NCBI GenBank assembly: GCA_902386385.1
Contig: CABMIU010000060.1
Coordinates: 1 to 45,315 of the forward strand
Direction of reading: 5' to 3'
DNA length: 45,315 nt
Origin: an uncultured archaeon
GTDB lineage: Archaea; Iainarchaeota; Iainarchaeia; Iainarchaeales; Iainarchaeaceae
Both the position numbers and the translations under genes were made by a program. Below are positions 3,924 through 44,463 of this stretch, piece by piece. The notes under the pieces were generated by a model. That model worked only from the letters and a program-made list of their open reading frames with translations, did no database searches and had not been told where the DNA came from. How positions within the stretch are numbered: the first letter of the stretch is position 1; every line of letters begins with the position of its first letter.

Positions 3924-4026
3924 ACAACCTTAAGAAATGGCGATTGCTGGACCGCAGCCGGCATTTGCTGAATTGCCCTTGCAAAAAGAAAGCAATTTAT
4001 ACCACAAGAGACTTCCTTTTACCATT

Positions 4027-4977
4027 ATGGACGAGAAGCTGAAAGGCAGCATTTTGCACCTTGCAATACTGCTAGGCCTGATTATTGCCCTGGTCGTGGT
4101 CCTGGTTTATACTGGCCTGCTGAGCTGCGGCGTTGTGCCAGGGGGCTGCGAACTCTATTACCAGTTCATTAAAGGCGGGCCGCCACAGGTGCTTATTGCC
4201 TACAACGACAGCGGCGGATTGGGCAATCCCGTGGCGCTCGCTGCGGTGCTCTCAAACAGGGAACTCCTCAGCGCGAGGGTGAAGGCAATGCCGATGGACA
4301 GGCTGACAAACGGAAACATCGGGGAATATGACATGGTCATAGTTGAAAGCGCGAGAAAAATATGCACGAGCCAGCTAAACACTTTCATGTACTATGTGAA
4401 CACTGGCGGGCGCCTGGTGTGGACAGGGGATGCAGGCACGGTGCCCTGCGAAGGGGACGAACTGCTCAAGGACAATGAAAGGAACGAGGAAGGCAAGGAC
4501 CAGACAATAGGGTCCTGGGCGCGCAAGGACGAGGGGGGCAAGCAGGTGAATTTTGACGAATTCCTCGGCGCAAGCTATATAGGCAACAGGTGCAGCATGA
4601 CAGAATGCAGGAAAGGCGAACTCGCCGGGTTTATCGAGGTCGTCACTCCTGAAAACAGGCTTGTTTACGGCCTGAGCCCCACAGTGCCTTTCCATGGTGA
4701 CTTTTCGGTAGTCCAGCTCAACGACCAGACATACACCCGCCTTGTCGCGGCATTGGATTATGGTTCAGACTTTATAGTGGAAAAGCAGGATGCAGCCTTG
4801 CCCGGCACTGGGCAGAGGCAGAGCCTCGGCAGGAAACTGCCATTCATTGTCTCTAGCCAGGTCGGGGACAGGGTGGCTTACTACGCGGCGCCTATTGAAT
4901 CCTTCGTGAGCGACGAGCAGCCGCAGAAGTACAAGGCACTCGTCGAGCAGATGTACTACGGGATGCTGTATAAGTGA
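4027..4977 (+). CDS. Membrane-anchored hypothetical protein with GATase/DUF4350-like ectodomain
   Basis: MDEKLKGSILHLAILLGLIIALVVVLVYTGLL TM anchor; PQVLIAYND...DMVIVESARK..NTGGRLVWTGDAG. Confidence 0.5.
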   Translation: MDEKLKGSILHLAILLGLIIALVVVLVYTGLLSCGVVPGGCELYYQFIKGGPPQVLIAYNDSGGLGNPVALAAVLSNRELLSARVKAMPMDRLTNGNIGEYDMVIVESARKICTSQLNTFMYYVNTGGRLVWTGDAGTVPCEGDELLKDNERNEEGKDQTIGSWARKDEGGKQVNFDEFLGASYIGNRCSMTECRKGELAGFIEVVTPENRLVYGLSPTVPFHGDFSVVQLNDQTYTRLVAALDYGSDFIVEKQDAALPGTGQRQSLGRKLPFIVSSQVGDRVAYYAAPIESFVSDEQPQKYKALVEQMYYGMLYK

Positions 4978-4983
4978 CACAGC

Positions 4984-5098
4984 CTTTTTCCTTTTCTTGA
5001 AAAGAAAAGTAAACCGGCTGGCGATTCGGCAACCATGGGTTGCTGAACCCAGCAAAACGAAGTTTTGCCGGGAAAAGTAAAAGAACGGCTACGCGAAC
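4984..5098. repeat. Composite hairpin element containing the 61-nt module shared with 21306-21366
   Basis: CTTTTCTTGAAAAGAAAAG hairpin plus GCAACCcatGGGTTGC and GCAAAAC-gaa-GTTTTGC; 5017-5077 is the exact reverse complement of 21306-21366. Confidence 0.85.
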
Positions 5099-5173
5099 AA
5101 GGAAAATATTTTATATGACAATAAATGGCAACCCGTCAAATTTAATAGCATTCCCCGGCTTTTATATGTGCAA

Positions 5174-5385
5174 GGGGCCGTAGCTCAGGCTGGATAGAGC
5201 ACCTGCCTTCTATAACCCTTTTCTTTTTCTCGATGAGAAAAAGAAAAGCGTTAGCGGAAAAGAAAAAGAGCATGCCATTGGCTTTTTCTCTTTCTTTTCC
5301 ATCAACGCTTTTCTTTCTCTTCTAAAGAGAAAGAAAAGGGTTGGATGAGAGCAGGGGGTCGTGAGTTCAAATCTCACCGGTCCCG
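5174..5385 (+). tRNA. tRNA-Arg(TCT) interrupted by a ~137-nt intron (5213-5349) at position 37/38
   Basis: Acceptor GGGGCCG/CGGTCCC, D arm GCTC..GAGC, anticodon stem CCTGC/GCAGG with loop CTTCTA|A, T arm GTGAG-TTCAAAT-CTCAC. Confidence 0.9.
5213..5349 (+). repeat. tRNA-Arg intron built from nested hairpins of the same polypyrimidine/polypurine family
   Basis: Ends AACCCTTTTCTTT...AAAGAAAAGGGTT (13 bp). Internal: CTTTTCTTTTTCTC-gat-GAGAAAAAGAAAAG; GGAAAAGAAAAAGAG..CTTTTTCTCTTTCTTTTCC; CTTTTCTTTCTCTT-cta-AAGAGAAAGAAAAG. Confidence 0.85.
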
Positions 5386-5389
5386 TTTC

Positions 5390-5447
5390 GCGTTTTTCTT
5401 TCTCTTTTCAAGAGAAAGAAAAACACGATGCAAAAAGAAAGAGAACC
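5390..5447. repeat. Hairpin element immediately downstream of tRNA-Arg
   Basis: GTTTTTCTTTCTCTTTTCAAGAGAAAGAAAAAC. Confidence 0.75.
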
Positions 5448-5486
5448 TACTTTAGAAAATATCACGAAAAAATCAAGGTGAGACCC

Positions 5487-6176
5487 ATGGAAAATGCCAC
5501 GCCCGTACAATTTCAAGAGCCGAAGTTCTATGCCACAATCACCGGCCTCTTTGTCGCGGTCCTGCTCATATCGAACATCGCCTCGTCAAAGATACTCAAC
5601 CTCGGGCTGTTCACCTTCGACGGAGGCACGATACTCTTCCCGCTCGCTTATATCTTCGGGGACATGCTCACCGAGGTTTACGGATTCAGGCGCGCGAGAA
5701 AAGTCATCTGGGTCGGCTTTGGCTCGGCCCTGCTGATGTCGGTTGTTTTGCTTATCGTCGGAGCATTGCCCCCCGCGGCTGGCTGGGAAAACCAAGCTGC
5801 TTATGACATAATCCTGGGCTTCGTGCCAAGGATTGTGGTTGCATCCCTAATCGCTTACTTTGCCGGGGAACTCACGAACAGCTTTGTGCTCGCTAAAATG
5901 AAGGTATGGTCAAAGGGAAAGCATTTATGGCAGAGGACAATCGGCTCGACAATCGCAGGGGAAGGGGTGGATACACTATTATTTGCGACGATTGCTTTTT
6001 TCGGGACCATGCCAGCTGAAACATTCATTGCCCTAGTTGTCTCGAACTACGTTTTCAAGGTCGGGGTAGAGGTGCTTTTCACGCCCGTTACCTATGCGGT
6101 AATCGGGTTCCTGAAGAGGGAGGAGCGCATTGATTATTATGATTACAGGACGGATTTCTCGCCGTTCAGGTTCTGA
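5487..6176 (+). CDS. Queuosine/archaeosine-precursor transporter-like protein (VUT/YhhQ family), paralog 1
   Basis: LLISNIASSKILNLGLFTFDGGTILFPLAYIFGDMLTEVYGFRRARKVIWVGF; ORF trimmed to internal ATG downstream of tRNA-Arg. Confidence 0.85.
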   Translation: MENATPVQFQEPKFYATITGLFVAVLLISNIASSKILNLGLFTFDGGTILFPLAYIFGDMLTEVYGFRRARKVIWVGFGSALLMSVVLLIVGALPPAAGWENQAAYDIILGFVPRIVVASLIAYFAGELTNSFVLAKMKVWSKGKHLWQRTIGSTIAGEGVDTLLFATIAFFGTMPAETFIALVVSNYVFKVGVEVLFTPVTYAVIGFLKREERIDYYDYRTDFSPFRF

Positions 6177-6273
6177 CACGGTTTTAAATGGTTTTACTCC
6201 AATATTTGAATTTGAACGGCCAAATCAAATTAAGAAAATCGACTGGCGATGAAAAGCAAAACGGTGGCAAAAA

Positions 6274-8007
6274 ATGGACTTCAAAAAAGACCTTGTAAAG
6301 GCGCTTGCAAAGGCAGGGGTTGAAGAAACTCTTGCAGAGCAGCTGCTCGAAGCCCCTTCCAAGCGCGAGATGGGTGACTTTGCACTGCCGTGCTTCAAGC
6401 TGGCGGCTGAAATGAAAAAAAACCCAGTGCTCATTGCCCAGGAAATCTCCGCAAAAATCGTCCTGCCAAAGGGATTCAGGAAAGCCGAGGCAAAAGGGCC
6501 TTACATAAACTTTTTCGTCGAGGAAGGAAAGCAGGCAAAGGAGACCATTGGCGAAATACTCGCAAAAAAGGAAAAGTATGGCATCGGCAAGCCTGCGAAG
6601 GGCGGCGACAGGATTATTGTCGAGTACTGCCAGGCAAACCCGATGAAGGCTTTCCACATCGGCCATGTGAGGAACATTGTACTCGGCGAAGCGATTGCAC
6701 GGCTTTTCGAGGCTTCAGGGAAAAAGGTTTTCAGGGCAAATTACGGGGGGGATGTCGGACCGCATGTTAGCAAGACTCTTTACGCTTACAGGGAACTCGC
6801 CCATGAGACTGAGCCGAAAGGCATAGCGGAAAAAGGTGCATGGTTAGGCAAGCTGTACAAGGCAGGGGCGGACGCGGTCAAGGAAGACGAGGCAAACAAT
6901 GGCGCCAACGGCTTGGAGCAGAAAATGCGCGACATGGTTGTTGAGCTGGAATCAGGAAAGAACAAGAGCCTCGTTGCAGACTGGAAAAAGCTAAGAAAAA
7001 TGAGCCTCGAATACTTCAGCAGCATATATGCCGAACTTGGCATAAAATTCGACCGAATAATCCTTGAAAGCGAAGTGGAAAAGGAAGGCATTGCAATCGC
7101 GCATAAGCTCCTTGAACAGGGCTTTGCAATACGGGACCAGGGCGCATTGCTGGTTAACCTCGAAGAGCATGGTCTAGGCAAGTTCCTTGTGCTAAAGAGC
7201 GATGGCGCAGCGCTTTACTCGAGCAAGGACCTCGCGCTCGCAAAGCTGAAGAAGAAGGAAATCAGGGCAAGGATTTCATACAACCTGGTGGGTTCTGAGC
7301 AGGCACATTATTTCAGGCAGCTGATGAAGACAATTGAGTTGCTGAACCAGGGAAACGGGGATTACTGCAAGACAGTGCACCTTTCTTATGAAATGGTGAG
7401 GCTCGAAGGCGGCAAGATGTCCTCGCGCGAAGGCAATGTCATAGCCTACTCCGAGCTTCTGGACGCGGTCTTTTCCAAAACTTTTACAGAAACAATGTCC
7501 CGCCATCCGGACTGGCCAAAAGAAAAGATAGAGGGAACGGCAAAGGCACTGGCCATGGGCGCGATAAAATTCGGCATGCTATGCCAGGACAGGAACAGCG
7601 TGATAACATTCAACTGGGAGAAGGCAACCTCGCTCGATGGCGAAACCGCGCCATTCATCCTATACAGCCATTGCCGCGCCAACAGCATACTCAAAAAGGC
7701 GGGAAAGCTGGCAAAGCAAAAGCCGAAGGAAATCATGCCTGAAACAGAAAAGGAAAAGTCACTAATATCCATGCTTGCCGCATTCCCTGAAAAGGCGATG
7801 GAGGCGGCGGAGCAGGAAAGCCCCCACAAGGTCTCATTCTACCTCATTGCATTGGCGCAGGAATTCAACTCTTTCTACCATGAAGTGCCAGTGCTGCAGG
7901 CAGGCCCGGAAAAGGCGGTGCAGAGGATTGCCATTGTAAGGGCGGTTGCACAGGTGCTTGAAAACGGCCTAAGGCTCCTGAACATAAATACGGTAGAGGA
8001 AATGTAG
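6274..8007 (+). CDS. argS: Arginyl-tRNA synthetase
   Basis: RIIVEYCQANPMKAFHIGHVRNIVLGEAIARL; RLEGGKMSSREGNVI; C-terminal anticodon-binding domain. Confidence 0.97.
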   Translation: MDFKKDLVKALAKAGVEETLAEQLLEAPSKREMGDFALPCFKLAAEMKKNPVLIAQEISAKIVLPKGFRKAEAKGPYINFFVEEGKQAKETIGEILAKKEKYGIGKPAKGGDRIIVEYCQANPMKAFHIGHVRNIVLGEAIARLFEASGKKVFRANYGGDVGPHVSKTLYAYRELAHETEPKGIAEKGAWLGKLYKAGADAVKEDEANNGANGLEQKMRDMVVELESGKNKSLVADWKKLRKMSLEYFSSIYAELGIKFDRIILESEVEKEGIAIAHKLLEQGFAIRDQGALLVNLEEHGLGKFLVLKSDGAALYSSKDLALAKLKKKEIRARISYNLVGSEQAHYFRQLMKTIELLNQGNGDYCKTVHLSYEMVRLEGGKMSSREGNVIAYSELLDAVFSKTFTETMSRHPDWPKEKIEGTAKALAMGAIKFGMLCQDRNSVITFNWEKATSLDGETAPFILYSHCRANSILKKAGKLAKQKPKEIMPETEKEKSLISMLAAFPEKAMEAAEQESPHKVSFYLIALAQEFNSFYHEVPVLQAGPEKAVQRIAIVRAVAQVLENGLRLLNINTVEEM

Positions 8008-9925: not shown

Positions 9926-12643
9926 TCACTCAACCAGTATCGCAGGCTTCAGCGGGAAAGCCCTCTGGGTTTTTTCAGGGTTCTGCTTTGCGGTTCCCGC
10001 GTCAAGCACAATGGCTTCGCAGCCTAGTTCCGCTGAAATCAGTTCCTGCGAAGCAAGGAGCAATTCAAGCTCATTGGCCTTTTCAATGCCCTTGAGTTCG
10101 TGGAATTTTGAAACAACGGCTTTCACAAACCCCTGGGCCTGGCCGGGATTCTTTTTTGCCTCGCTGTCCGCCATTGCAATCCTCATAGCCTGCCCAAAGT
10201 CCGGCCGCTCCATCCCAGAAACAATTTTCCCCAGCACATTCCACTTCCATTGCGGGGCAACAAAAATAGTGACCTTCTTAGGCACCTCAATCTTCGCGAG
10301 CACTTTTATCTGCTCCACATCCTGCCTTATGGCCTCAATCATTTTCTCAGCGGCAATGGCCTCAGCATCAGCAGCACCAACAGCCTTTTGCAGGGCATCC
10401 GACTCTTCTGCCGATGGCCACTTTTCAGATGTGAGCAGGCCCTTCTGGCCTAGCATTTCCCAAGCTTCCTCGGCAAAGTGCGGGGCGAATGGCGCAATCA
10501 TCTTCGCAATTGATTCGAGGGCAAGGCGCATTACGCTGCCATCAATTTTATCGTACTTTGCCAAAGCATTTGTCAAATCAGTTATCGCTGCAAGTGCATA
10601 GTTGAATTTGTAGGAATCAATCAGGGTGGTTACTTCCCTTATTGTAGCGCGTGTTTTCGCGAGGACAATCCGGTTTGCCATTGAAAGCTTCTTCGGCACC
10701 CTTGCCTTCTTCGCCCATTTGTTCGCCTCGAACAGCGAGTGCAGGCGCAGCAGGAACCTGTGGGTTGATTCAACACCGCGGTCATTCCAGTCCATCTCGC
10801 TCTCAGGCAGCGAAGCCCCGAGCATGAAAACCCTTATCGTGTCCGGGCCATACTTTGCCATCATGTCGCTCGGGTCCACGATGTTTCCCAGGGACTTGGA
10901 CATCTTCGCCCCGTCCTTGAGCACCATGCCCTGCGAAAGCAGGCGCCTGAACGGCTCATCATAATCCACGAGGCCCTCGTCTCGCATGAACCTGTAAAAA
11001 AATCTCGAGTACAGGAGGTGAAGAATCGCATGCTCTATACCCCCGATATACTGGTCCACAGGCGACCAATGCATTGCCTCCTTTTTTTCGAAAGGGGCTT
11101 TTGATTCCTGTGCAGAACAATACCTAAGGTAATACCACGAACTGTCTACAAATGTATCCATTGTGTCGGTTTCGCGCTTCGCAGCAGAGCCGCACTCCGG
11201 GCACCGGCATTCCACGAATTCCTTTACGGTCTGCAACGGGTTCCCGCCAAAATTGAAATCAGCAATCTTCGGGTCGGGAAGCTCGACCGGCAAATCCTTT
11301 TCGGGCACGGGAACAACCCCGCACTTCTGGCAATAAACTATCGGTATCGGGGTGCCCCAGAAGCGCTGGCGGGAGATGAGCCAGTCACGGAGCTTGTAAT
11401 TCGTAGTCTTTTTCCCAGTCTTGTTCTTCTCCAGCCAGTCAGCCATTTTTGGCAGTGCCTCACGATTACCCATGCCTGAAAACTCGCCAGAACCGAACAA
11501 TATCCCGTCATCAACAAAAGCTCCCGCAGCGGCACCGGCCTCAACAGGCTTTCCATCGGGACTTATGACAAACTTCAGAGGTATTTTGTATTTCCTCGCG
11601 AACCTGAAATCGCGCTTATCGTGGGCATCACACATCACAATGCCCGTGCCATACATCAAGGCAAAATTCGCGAGGTACACGGGAATTTCCTCGCCATTTG
11701 CTGGATTTATTGCATAATTCCCCGTGAAATAGCCTTCCTTTTCCTTCTCTTCATTCTCCCTGTCAATGATGCTTTCATCCACAACTTTCCTTATGAAGTC
11801 CTTGGCCCCTTGCTCATACTCTGTCCCCTTAACCAAATCAAGCACAATGGGGTTCTCCGGTGCAATTGCAATGAAAGTGACGCTAAAAATAGTGTCACAT
11901 CTCGTGGTATAAGCAGGCAAAACCTTGTCAGACCCCTTCAACTTGAAAAAGATATTTGTGCCCTGGCTCTTCCCAATCCAGTTCCTCTGCATCACTCGGA
12001 CGCGCTCCGGCCAGCTTTCCAGCCCCTCAAGGCCCGCAAGCAACTCATCAGCATAGGCCGTTATTTTGAGGAACCACTGTTCCAGGTCCTTCTGGACAAC
12101 ACCACAATCCTTGTGACGCCAGCACTTGCCGTCAACAACCTGCTCGTTAGCGAGCACAGTGTGGCATTTGCCGCACCAATTCACCTTCGCCGCCTTCTTG
12201 TAGGCGAGGCCCTTTGCCAGCATTTTTAGGAAGAACCACTGGTTCCACTTGTAATATTCAGGCAGGCAGGTGATTACTTCACGCCCCCAGTCGTAACTGA
12301 AGCCGAGCTCCCGCATCTGACCCTCCATGTCGGCAATCCTCTTTAGTGTCCATTCCCTAGGGTCTGCCTTGTGCTCTATTGCCGCGTTTTCCGCGGGCAG
12401 ACCGAAGGCATCAAAGCCAATGGGATAAAGGACATTGTAACCCTGCATCCGCCTGAAGCGCGCAATGCAGTCGCCTATCGAATAGTTGCGAACATGGCCC
12501 ATATGCAGCTTGCCGGAAGGATAAGGGAACATTTCGAGGACATAATATTTCTCGCCATTTTTCGATGGCTTTGCCTCGAAAACCTTTTCCTCGGCCCATC
12601 GCTTCTGCCATTTCTTCGCAATAGCATTTAAATCCGCAGGCAT
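9926..12643 (-). CDS. leuS: Leucyl-tRNA synthetase, bacterial-type
   Basis: [103 protein letters not shown]. Confidence 0.96.
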
Positions 12644-15264: not shown

Positions 15265-15391
15265 TTCTTTTCCTTTTTGGCCAAGCTTTTTCTGCGTTAG
15301 CGGTTCTCTTTCTTTTCCGCCAAGCTTTTCAAAGAACTCTTTTCTTTTTTGGCCAAGCTTTTTTCTTTTCTCTCTGAGAAAAGAAAAAAGG
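15265..15391. repeat. Composite hairpin element abutting the 3' end of RNase P RNA
   Basis: Three copies of GCCAAGCTTTT; terminal palindrome CTTTTTTCTTTTCTC-tct-GAGAAAAGAAAAAAG. Confidence 0.8.
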
Positions 15392-15393
15392 TT

Positions 15394-15652
15394 GAGGTGC
15401 AGGGCATAAGCCGCCTTCTGTTCTAATCCAGAAACCCACTAACAAAATGGGTTTTGCCCCGTTAAGAGCCGGATTGCATTGGCATTCGACTAAGCCCTCA
15501 TAAGAGGTTGCACTCTCCAGCCGCCGTTTCATCCCACCAAAGGGTCTCGTTTCTGTTCAGCTGGGCGTCCTCTCGGACCGTGTGTTTCACGAGTGGGCGG
15601 ACTTTCCTCAGCGTCCTCGAAGGGATACCGACAGCCAATCGCCCTGCTCCTC
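15394..15652 (-). ncRNA. rnpB: RNase P RNA
   Basis: Minus strand has GAGGAAAGTCCGCCC (CR-I), AGAACAGAAGGCGGCTTATGCCCTGC near the 3' end, and P1 pairing GAGGaGCAGGGC/GCCCTGCaCCTC. Confidence 0.93.
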
Positions 15653-17564: not shown

Positions 17565-17727
17565 CCCAGCGCTCACGCTGTGCATTTGCAAAAAAATATT
17601 TTATTTGCAGAATTCGGCTTTTGACTGGAATTTTATTTGATGTCGTGCATAAACCTGAAAAGGCCAGCTTTTCAGATCGACCTTAAGCAAGACCAAATGA
17701 ATTGCAGCAGCGCGAAGCTGACACTTT

Positions 17728-17776
17728 TCTTTTTGGTCGAGCTTTTTCTTTTCAGTCACGAAAAGAAAAAGGTCGC
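17728..17776. repeat. Hairpin element just downstream of 23S 3' end, inside the pre-23S processing stem
   Basis: CTTTTTCTTTTC-agtca-cGAAAAGAAAAAG. Confidence 0.75.
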
Positions 17777-21029: not shown

Positions 21030-21099
21030 TATCCGCAAAGCGGCTCTTTTCTTTTTTGGTAAAGCTTTTTTCTTTTCTCACCGAGAAAAGAAAAAAGGT
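21030..21099. repeat. Hairpin element downstream of tRNA-Ala in the 16S-23S spacer
   Basis: GCTTTTTTCTTTTCTC-acc-GAGAAAAGAAAAAAGG. Confidence 0.75.
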
Positions 21100-21100
21100 T

Positions 21101-21172
21101 TGGACCCTACGGGAATTGAACCCGTGGCCTCTCCGATGCAAACGGAGCGCTCTGCCGCTGAGCTAAGGGCCC
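21101..21172 (-). tRNA. tRNA-Ala(TGC) in rRNA spacer
   Basis: GGGCCCT/AGGGTCC acceptor with G3:U70; anticodon arm CTCCG-TTTGCAT-CGGAG; T arm CGGGTTCAATTCCCG-type. Confidence 0.95.
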
Positions 21173-21301: not shown

Positions 21302-21396
21302 TTTTCTTTTCCCGGCAAAACTTCGTTTTGCTGGGTTCAGCAACCCATGGTTGCCGAATCGCCAGCTCTTTTTCTTTTCGTGCAACGAAAAGAAAA
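21302..21396. repeat. Composite hairpin element, inverted perfect copy of the 5017-5077 module
   Basis: 21306-21366 CTTTTCCCGGCAAAACTTCGTTTTGCTGGGTTCAGCAACCCATGGTTGCCGAATCGCCAGC. Confidence 0.88.
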
Positions 21397-21441
21397 AGGC
21401 TGAGTTGCATATGAGAGTTTCCTAATTGTTGGCCGTCCTTT

Positions 21442-21513
21442 GGCGAAAAAGTTCTTTTTCTTTTTCGCTGGCCTTTTTATTTTTCTTTTCAAGAAAAAGA
21501 AAAAGGCCACCAT
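21442..21513. repeat. Hairpin element downstream of 16S
   Basis: GCGAAAAAGttcTTTTTCTTTTTCGC and TTTTTCTTTTCAAGAAAAAGAAAAA. Confidence 0.75.
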
Positions 21514-29158: not shown

Positions 29159-29233
29159 TGCCCTAGACGAGATTTGAACTCGTGTCGTCGGCTTGAAAGG
29201 CCGATGTCCTTGACCGGGCTAGACGACTAGGGC
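29159..29233 (-). tRNA. tRNA-Glu(TTC)
   Basis: GCCCTAG/CTAGGGC acceptor; anticodon arm TCGGC-CTTTCAA-GCCGA; T arm CGAG..TTCAAAT..CTCG. Confidence 0.94.
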
Positions 29234-29288
29234 AACCGCATGCTCCGGTTGGGGGAGCATACGTCTGGCCCATTTTCAATGGGCCGAA

Positions 29289-29340
29289 CCTTTTTCTTTT
29301 CGGTCACGAAAAGAAAAATGCTTGGGAAAAAGAAAAGTGT
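29289..29340. repeat. Hairpin element upstream of tRNA-Glu
   Basis: CCTTTTTCTTTTCGgtcaCGAAAAGAAAAA. Confidence 0.7.
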
Positions 29341-43950: not shown

Positions 43951-44463
43951 ATGGCCCTTTTGGTTGACGACAAGGTTTTGTGCAGGGACAAGAGGCTCGG
44001 CGACGCGTTGAGGCAGCGCGGCTTCGGCGAGCAGAGGGAACGCGAGCTAGTTTTCGACCTGTTCGAGGCATTATACCTCTCGGAAAAGGAAAAATTCGGC
44101 ATTGTGAACAGCAAAACAAGCGAGGCAGTGGACGAGGACGCGCTTGTGAAGCACGCCGACAGGAAAATAAAGAATTTTTATTTGAAATACCAGGTTTTCA
44201 GGGACCTCCGCGAAAGGGGATTTGTTGTCAAAACAGGGTTCAAGTTCGGCTTTGACTTCCGCGTGTACCCGCGCGGAAAAAAGCCGGGCGAGGCGCACTC
44301 GCAGTGGTGCATCAATGTCACGGCACAGGACGACAAGTACAATTTCATAGAGCTATCCCGCATGGTTAGGCTCGCGGGCAACCTTAAAACAAAGCTCCTG
44401 AACGCGGTAGTGGATTCGGAGAACGAAATAAATTATTATGAAGTGACAAGGGTCACGCCTTGA
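43951..44463 (+). CDS. endA: tRNA-splicing endonuclease EndA
   Basis: YLKYQVFRDLRERGFVVKTGFKFGFDFRVYPRGKKPGEAHSQWCINV..SRMVRLAGNLKTKLLNAVVD: Tyr/His/Lys catalytic triad positions present. Confidence 0.95.
   Translation: MALLVDDKVLCRDKRLGDALRQRGFGEQRERELVFDLFEALYLSEKEKFGIVNSKTSEAVDEDALVKHADRKIKNFYLKYQVFRDLRERGFVVKTGFKFGFDFRVYPRGKKPGEAHSQWCINVTAQDDKYNFIELSRMVRLAGNLKTKLLNAVVDSENEINYYEVTRVTP

Follow-up and report, generated by a model that had tools for sequence, protein, structure and literature searches.

Archaeal BHB tRNA introns share their position (37/38), a BHB-type junction and an association with EndA and RtcB with the intron of a tRNA-Arg(TCT) gene found in the stretch of DNA analysed here (45,315 nt from an uncultured archaeon, further referred to as the window). 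They differ from it in that the body of the window intron is a pair of copies of a dispersed repeat, which occurs in 11 tRNAs and outside tRNA genes. Large-scale transposition of tRNA introns, for which no mechanism is known, has been inferred in the Thermoproteales (Fujishima et al. 2010, as cited in PMC4090602 and PMC10714607). As in these accounts, near-identical introns occur here across different tRNAs of one lineage; however, the Thermoproteales introns are described therein as moving among tRNA genes, whereas the present unit is not confined to tRNA genes and also abuts the ends of tRNA, RNase P RNA and coding genes. In addition, the Thermoproteales are Crenarchaeota, whereas the host of the window belongs to the Diapherotrites. 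For Caldiarchaeum, a connection between the gain of a tRNA intron and a mobile element has been made (PMC3293823).

Bacteria are known to harbour intrastrand triplex repeats, of which the PIT/BoxC repeats (PMC4666352) share with the present unit (H-T, a hairpin H with a tail T) a Y-R-R hairpin with a mirror third strand, a high copy number, the occurrence of inverted pairs and loci that are unstable between strains. The H-T units differ in being archaeal and A/T-rich, with stems of 11-15 nt and a second loop of about 7-8 nt, which lies outside the loop range of 1-6 nt in PMC4666352 (a published search setting and not a physical limit), as well as in serving as tRNA introns and lying flush with RNA ends; the main text of PMC4666352 does not mention tRNA. 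REP/REPIN sequences with RAYT (PMC3116915, PMC3733652) are likewise extragenic palindrome units, often in inverted pairs. However, neither a GTAG/CGTC tag tetranucleotide in the H-T units nor a RAYT gene beside their copies was seen, and a mirror tail is no feature of REP. A literature search found no report of tRNA introns built from such triplex repeats, nor of their location directly against the ends of tRNAs and RNase P RNA. Eukaryotic introners are repeated elements that generate introns at novel positions and show presence/absence differences. Such differences at orthologous sites were also found here, but the introns concern tRNA instead of mRNA and EndA instead of the spliceosome, and no target duplication, mobilising enzyme or other transposition machinery was found for the H-T units.

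The tRNA-Arg(TCT) gene and its splicing signals

The tRNA-Arg(TCT) gene (window 5174-5385) is interrupted at 37/38 by an intron of 137 nt (5213-5349; Table 1). It escaped detection by plain ARAGORN and by the Rfam tRNA model and required the intron mode of ARAGORN, which was concordant with an independent custom scan on both gene and intron. An earlier note on this DNA had claimed that the cloverleaf is complete without 5213-5349, and this was borne out by both scans and by an intronless orthologue. The same note regarded a second intact tRNA-Arg(TCT), with the present locus untranscribed, as evidence against its interpretation; no second gene was found, the present gene being the sole TCT gene detected in the host genome (G000; 1.09 Mb, 84% complete). 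The codon AGA, which this tRNA must read, is in use (37 of the 7076 codons counted).

Folding of the intron region was far stronger than that of shuffled sequences (z = -9.4). The 13-bp terminal stem that had been noticed earlier (AACCCTTTTCTTT/AAAGAAAAGGGTT; 5214-5226/5330-5342) is real. However, it had been described together with three internal stem-loops, the outer ones of which compete for its arms; as the same arms are used, the terminal stem and the outer hairpins are alternatives and not simultaneous. The junction was as the earlier note described it, with bulges UAU and AGA and a central CUUC/GAUG helix with one U-U mismatch, apart from an unpaired extra G5343 that had been overlooked. 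Three of the four central pairs can form, and forcing the BHB costs ~5 kcal/mol relative to the best cloverleaf fold; the window junction may be called a slightly relaxed BHB. M. jannaschii-type EndA is generally regarded as needing strict BHBs. To describe the register across the family, the four nucleotides that precede the 3' splice site at a distance of two bases were compared with nt 32-35 in 30 introns, giving a mean of 3.57 out of 4 bp (19 of the 30 being perfect), against 1.5-2.4 pairs in other registers; none of 5000 shuffles among introns attained the observed value.

Both enzymes of archaeal BHB intron splicing are encoded by this genome, EndA in the window (Table 1) and RtcB outside it (L303; G000 C49:15067-17892). 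The RtcB match is split by ~1.5 kb within one frame of 1012 aa, which is intein-like. In the EndA proteins of this order (window 43951-44463 and L081-L089), Thr occupies the position of the catalytic lysine of M. jannaschii EndA, which we take to be Lys156; the motif NLKT/NINT/TLNT is conserved, and Tyr and His are retained in the alignments.

Table 1. Features of the tRNA-Arg(TCT) locus, H-T units and EndA gene in the window.
Feature	Position	Strand	Evidence
tRNA-Arg(TCT) 5' exon, nt 1-37	5174-5212	+	ARAGORN intron mode, custom scan, syntenic intronless orthologue
Intron, 137 nt, at 37/38	5213-5349	+	ARAGORN, custom scan; exact boundaries from G001 C52:11885/11886
tRNA-Arg(TCT) 3' exon, nt 38-73	5350-5385	+	ARAGORN, custom scan, G001 orthologue
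Intron unit 1: H (5213-5253) facing exon 1, with mirror tail T	5213-5270	+	model R1, 77.2 bits
Intron unit 2, inverted: H (5303-5343) facing exon 2	5286-5343	-	model R1, 75.9 bits
BHB 5' side: CUUC (nt 32-35), bulge UA^U	5207-5213	+	sequence, register test
BHB 3' side: GAUG, bulge AG^A; extra G5343 immediately before	5344-5350	+	sequence, register test
EndA tRNA splicing endonuclease, 170 aa, single copy	43951-44463	+	end-to-end alignment with M. jannaschii EndA (1A79)
H-T unit 2 nt past tRNA-Arg 3' end	5388-5445	+	model R1, 69.6 bits; absent in G001
H-X-T unit 2 nt past stop of ORF 3937-4977 (X = 5018-5077)	4980-5092	+	absent in G001
H-T unit flush with RNase P RNA 3' end (15395)	15337-15394	-	model R1
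H-T unit 12 nt past 23S rRNA 3' end	17725-17775	-	model R1
H-T unit flush with tRNA-Ala 3' end	21044-21101	-	model R1
H-X-T unit in 16S/tRNA-Ala spacer	21306-21402	-	model R1
H-T unit 65 nt past 16S rRNA 3' end	21452-21509	-	model R1
H-T unit ~52 nt from 5' end of tRNA-Glu (29159-29233, minus strand)	29286-29339	+	model R1

Architecture and distribution of the H-T unit

The intron consists of two copies of a ~58-nt unit in inverted orientation, arranged as H-T...T'-H'. In this unit, H is a hairpin with a pyrimidine 5' arm and a purine 3' arm, followed by a spacer of ~7-8 nt and a purine tail T, which mirrors the purine arm of its own hairpin. Indeed, the R arm of intron unit 1 (GAGAAAAAGAAAAG) is exactly mirrored by its tail (GAAAAGAAAAAGAG), as is that of intron unit 2 (AAGAGAAAGAAAAG) by GAAAAGAAAGAGAA. 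Exact mirror tails were present in 62 of the 82 distinct units from this and related genomes, against a mean of 10 and a maximum of 20 when tails were shuffled among units (2000 shuffles); a direct repeat of the arm fitted only 16 of the 82 tails. The arm patterns vary by unit (for example, A5GA3GAG, A4GA5G, A6GA4GAG and A5GA3GG), and hairpin and tail covary. The excess of exact mirrors over the shuffled maximum marks the unit as an A/T-rich intrastrand-triplex (PIT/BoxC-like) repeat, in which the third strand mirrors the purine arm. As ordinary DNA copying makes no mirror repeats, this suggests selection for a three-stranded structure; the H-T unit may form a triplex in DNA. Pairing between T and T' was rejected as an explanation of the tails, which in the window intron differ from each other and are imperfectly complementary, each mirroring its own hairpin. 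An RNA triplex as sole function was rejected as well, because the units occur in both orientations relative to transcription; a DNA-level geometry therefore fits better than an RNA triplex alone.

Scoring of 150 of the 1961 first-look candidates in G000 with covariance model R1 yielded at least 61 oriented units, this census being a lower bound. Among the 61 units listed, 13 are located inside tRNA introns at 37/38, 15 abut tRNA ends (six at 5' ends and nine at 3' ends), one directly adjoins the 3' end of RNase P RNA, one lies 12 nt from the 23S and one 65 nt from the 16S 3' end, and 11 follow stop codons, about nine of them at a distance of 0-2 nt, the remainder being intergenic. The 11 tRNAs with family introns in this genome are Arg(TCT), Arg(CCG), Pro(TGG), Ser(GGA), Ser(CGA), Ser(GCT), Leu(CAA), Gln(TTG), Cys(GCA), Tyr(GTA) and Gly(TCC). 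The gene-facing side is always H and never T: at a distance of 6 nt or less from an RNA segment, the H side was found 28 times and the T side not once among the 61 units listed. Similarly, among 54 units listed for four relatives (G001, G003, G004 and G006), 16 lie in introns and 17 abut tRNA ends with H, and none does so with T. Both this orientation and the covarying mirror tail had gone unseen in the earlier note, which did place the intron modules outside stable RNA genes too. The latter holds elsewhere in the genome, where units away from RNA genes are present, but not in the window, where every unit except that at 4980-5092 is placed within or next to a gene for tRNA, rRNA or RNase P RNA.

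A repeat of ~60 nt, X, occurs in four 100% identical copies in G000 (window 5018-5077; window 21306-21366, minus strand; G000 C28:5225-5286; G000 C62:16168-16227) and was not found in four relatives. Each copy occupies the spacer between H and T of a unit, one of these within the tRNA-Arg(CCG) intron, and X looks like a recent nested mobile element. A further nested insert (CCTTGCAG..CTGCGAGGCCTCGTCCC..GGGACAAGGT) resides within hairpin arms or spacers of several introns, namely those of Ser(GGA), Ser(GCT) and Pro(CGG) in G001 and of Arg(TCT) in G003 and G005. The MAGs L133, L145 and L150 (submitter labels Thermoplasmatales / Euryarchaeota) hold ~21 and 29 units, with tRNA introns of the same kind. 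The architecture of hairpin plus mirror tail also forms the inverted ends of MITE-like elements of ~500-600 bp in rabbit-gut Oscillospiraceae MAGs (L091, L125, L127 and L148); model R1 gave no match to these ends, which may be convergent or related.

Presence and absence of the intron among related genomes

In the congeneric genome G001, the syntenic tRNA-Arg(TCT) gene is continuous, without an intron, the gene order tRNA-Leu(GAG), ORF, tRNA-Arg(TCT), VUT transporter and arginyl-tRNA synthetase being common to both genomes. The position of tRNA-Arg(TCT) two genes ahead of arginyl-tRNA synthetase (window 5174-8007) is thus the same in both. Window 5167-5212 aligns with G001 C52:11841-11885 and window 5350-5383 with 11886-11920, 11885 and 11886 being adjacent; this fixes the intron boundaries (5213-5349) to the base, as the sequence permits no shift. 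The search for an intronless allele in a sister genome, as proposed in the earlier note, was thereby successful. No target duplication was visible at this locus between G000 and G001. The latter genome also lacks the unit in the tRNA 3' flank (5388-5445) and that after the stop of the upstream ORF (4980-5092).

With orthology by synteny applying to the Arg(TCT) locus of G000 and G001 only, and all other comparisons being made by isoacceptor in incomplete genomes, the Arg(TCT) intron was present in G000, G003, G005, G006 and G013 and absent from G001, G004, G007 and G026. On the same basis, the Gln(TTG) intron was present in G000 and absent from G001, the Leu(TAA) intron was absent from G000 and present in G006, and the Ser(CGA) intron was present in G000 and absent from G006. 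The introns being too short and too low in complexity for trees, their relations were judged by nearest neighbours. The nearest neighbour of the window intron is the tRNA-Pro(TGG) intron of the same genome (81%), the Arg introns of other genera being less close; spread within the genome is therefore favoured.

Origin of the intron

The intron probably represents a dispersed intrastrand-triplex repeat, present in two copies of opposite orientation at 37/38 of tRNA-Arg(TCT) and spliced by EndA and RtcB. The relaxed BHB of the window and the Thr in EndA speak against this reading, as does the failure to find a linked mover or a target duplication. After transcription, its outer arms would pair together, and its 3' end would pair with nt 32-35 of the anticodon loop to form the BHB, upon which EndA would cleave between 5212 and 5213 and between 5349 and 5350 and RtcB would ligate the exons; this splicing of the precursor is predicted from the sequence. 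The best reading of the locus is that the repeat was inserted as a spliceable intron, which would have arrived by repeat insertion rather than having been lost in the sister. As to the insertion step, it may be guessed that it is a DNA-level move, tolerated only at functional boundaries, namely stop codons, the termini of mature RNAs and the 37/38 bond, which is compatible with a BHB.

Two rival explanations deserve mention. The H-T unit could be a host boundary element, for instance a terminator or insulator, in which case introns would stem not from insertion but from the joining of boundary-flanked split tRNA genes (exon1-H-T + T'-H'-exon2). The constant position of H toward the gene end and T away from it, seen at the ends of tRNAs and of RNase P RNA as well as at stop codons, would suit such a role, as would the mirror covariation, which implies a structure under selection. 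However, the congener is without the units at the same locus in an otherwise unchanged gene order, no split tRNA halves were seen, units also occur at tRNA 5' ends, where a terminator would be senseless, and single-unit introns exist (G006 Arg, 70 nt), all of which makes a boundary origin unlikely. Spread of introns between tRNA genes by exon recombination, as proposed for the Thermoproteales, with the extragenic copies as offshoots, deserves somewhat more credit, albeit still doubtful. It agrees with the 87% identity between the Ser(GGA) and Ser(GCT) introns of G001 and with the Ser(GGA) gene, intron and 5' unit, which are 96% identical across genera between flanks that are ~80% identical or unalignable. 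Yet, recombination in the anticodon arm cannot make units at tRNA 5' and 3' ends, after stop codons or at RNase P RNA. The Ser(GGA) cassette, with its 133-nt intron (G000 C25:53247-53520 and G006 C10:34818-35095), was possibly exchanged whole between the two genera.

It is extremely improbable that the intron is an ordinary, vertically inherited low-complexity tRNA intron, the hairpin likeness of which reflects base composition. All arms are indeed A/G versus T/C tracts with similar patterns, but E-values of the family model reach 1e-11, shuffled windows give only 0-1 hairpins of this type, the mirror covariation is pattern-specific and the site is empty in the congener; these tests already contradict an explanation by composition.

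Regarding insertion of the repeat, the earlier note had suggested that tRNA introns arise from a mobile hairpin. This idea gains from the dispersed family, the syntenic presence/absence, the position-specific BHB pairing and the EndA and RtcB genes, but not as far as transposition is concerned, as neither a linked transposase nor a target duplication was found. Mobilisation by RAYT was rejected, since Y1_Tnp genes occur in 4 of the 8 family genomes with no family hairpins beside them. Similarly, an RVT_1 search of genomes that are 63-92% complete found no reverse transcriptase for retro-insertion. Tentatively, the triplex-hairpin unit may nevertheless be an archaeal introner-like mobile element that inserts at functional boundaries of RNA (the BHB-compatible bond 37/38 as well as the 5' and 3' ends of mature RNAs) and could be a main current source of new tRNA introns in the Diapherotrites.

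The origin of tRNA introns is an old question. As the intron body, its extragenic copies and the empty site of the congener are all visible here, gain, splicing and targeting become directly testable. We know of no role described so far for intrastrand-triplex repeats, to which tRNA introns would give a clear consequence.
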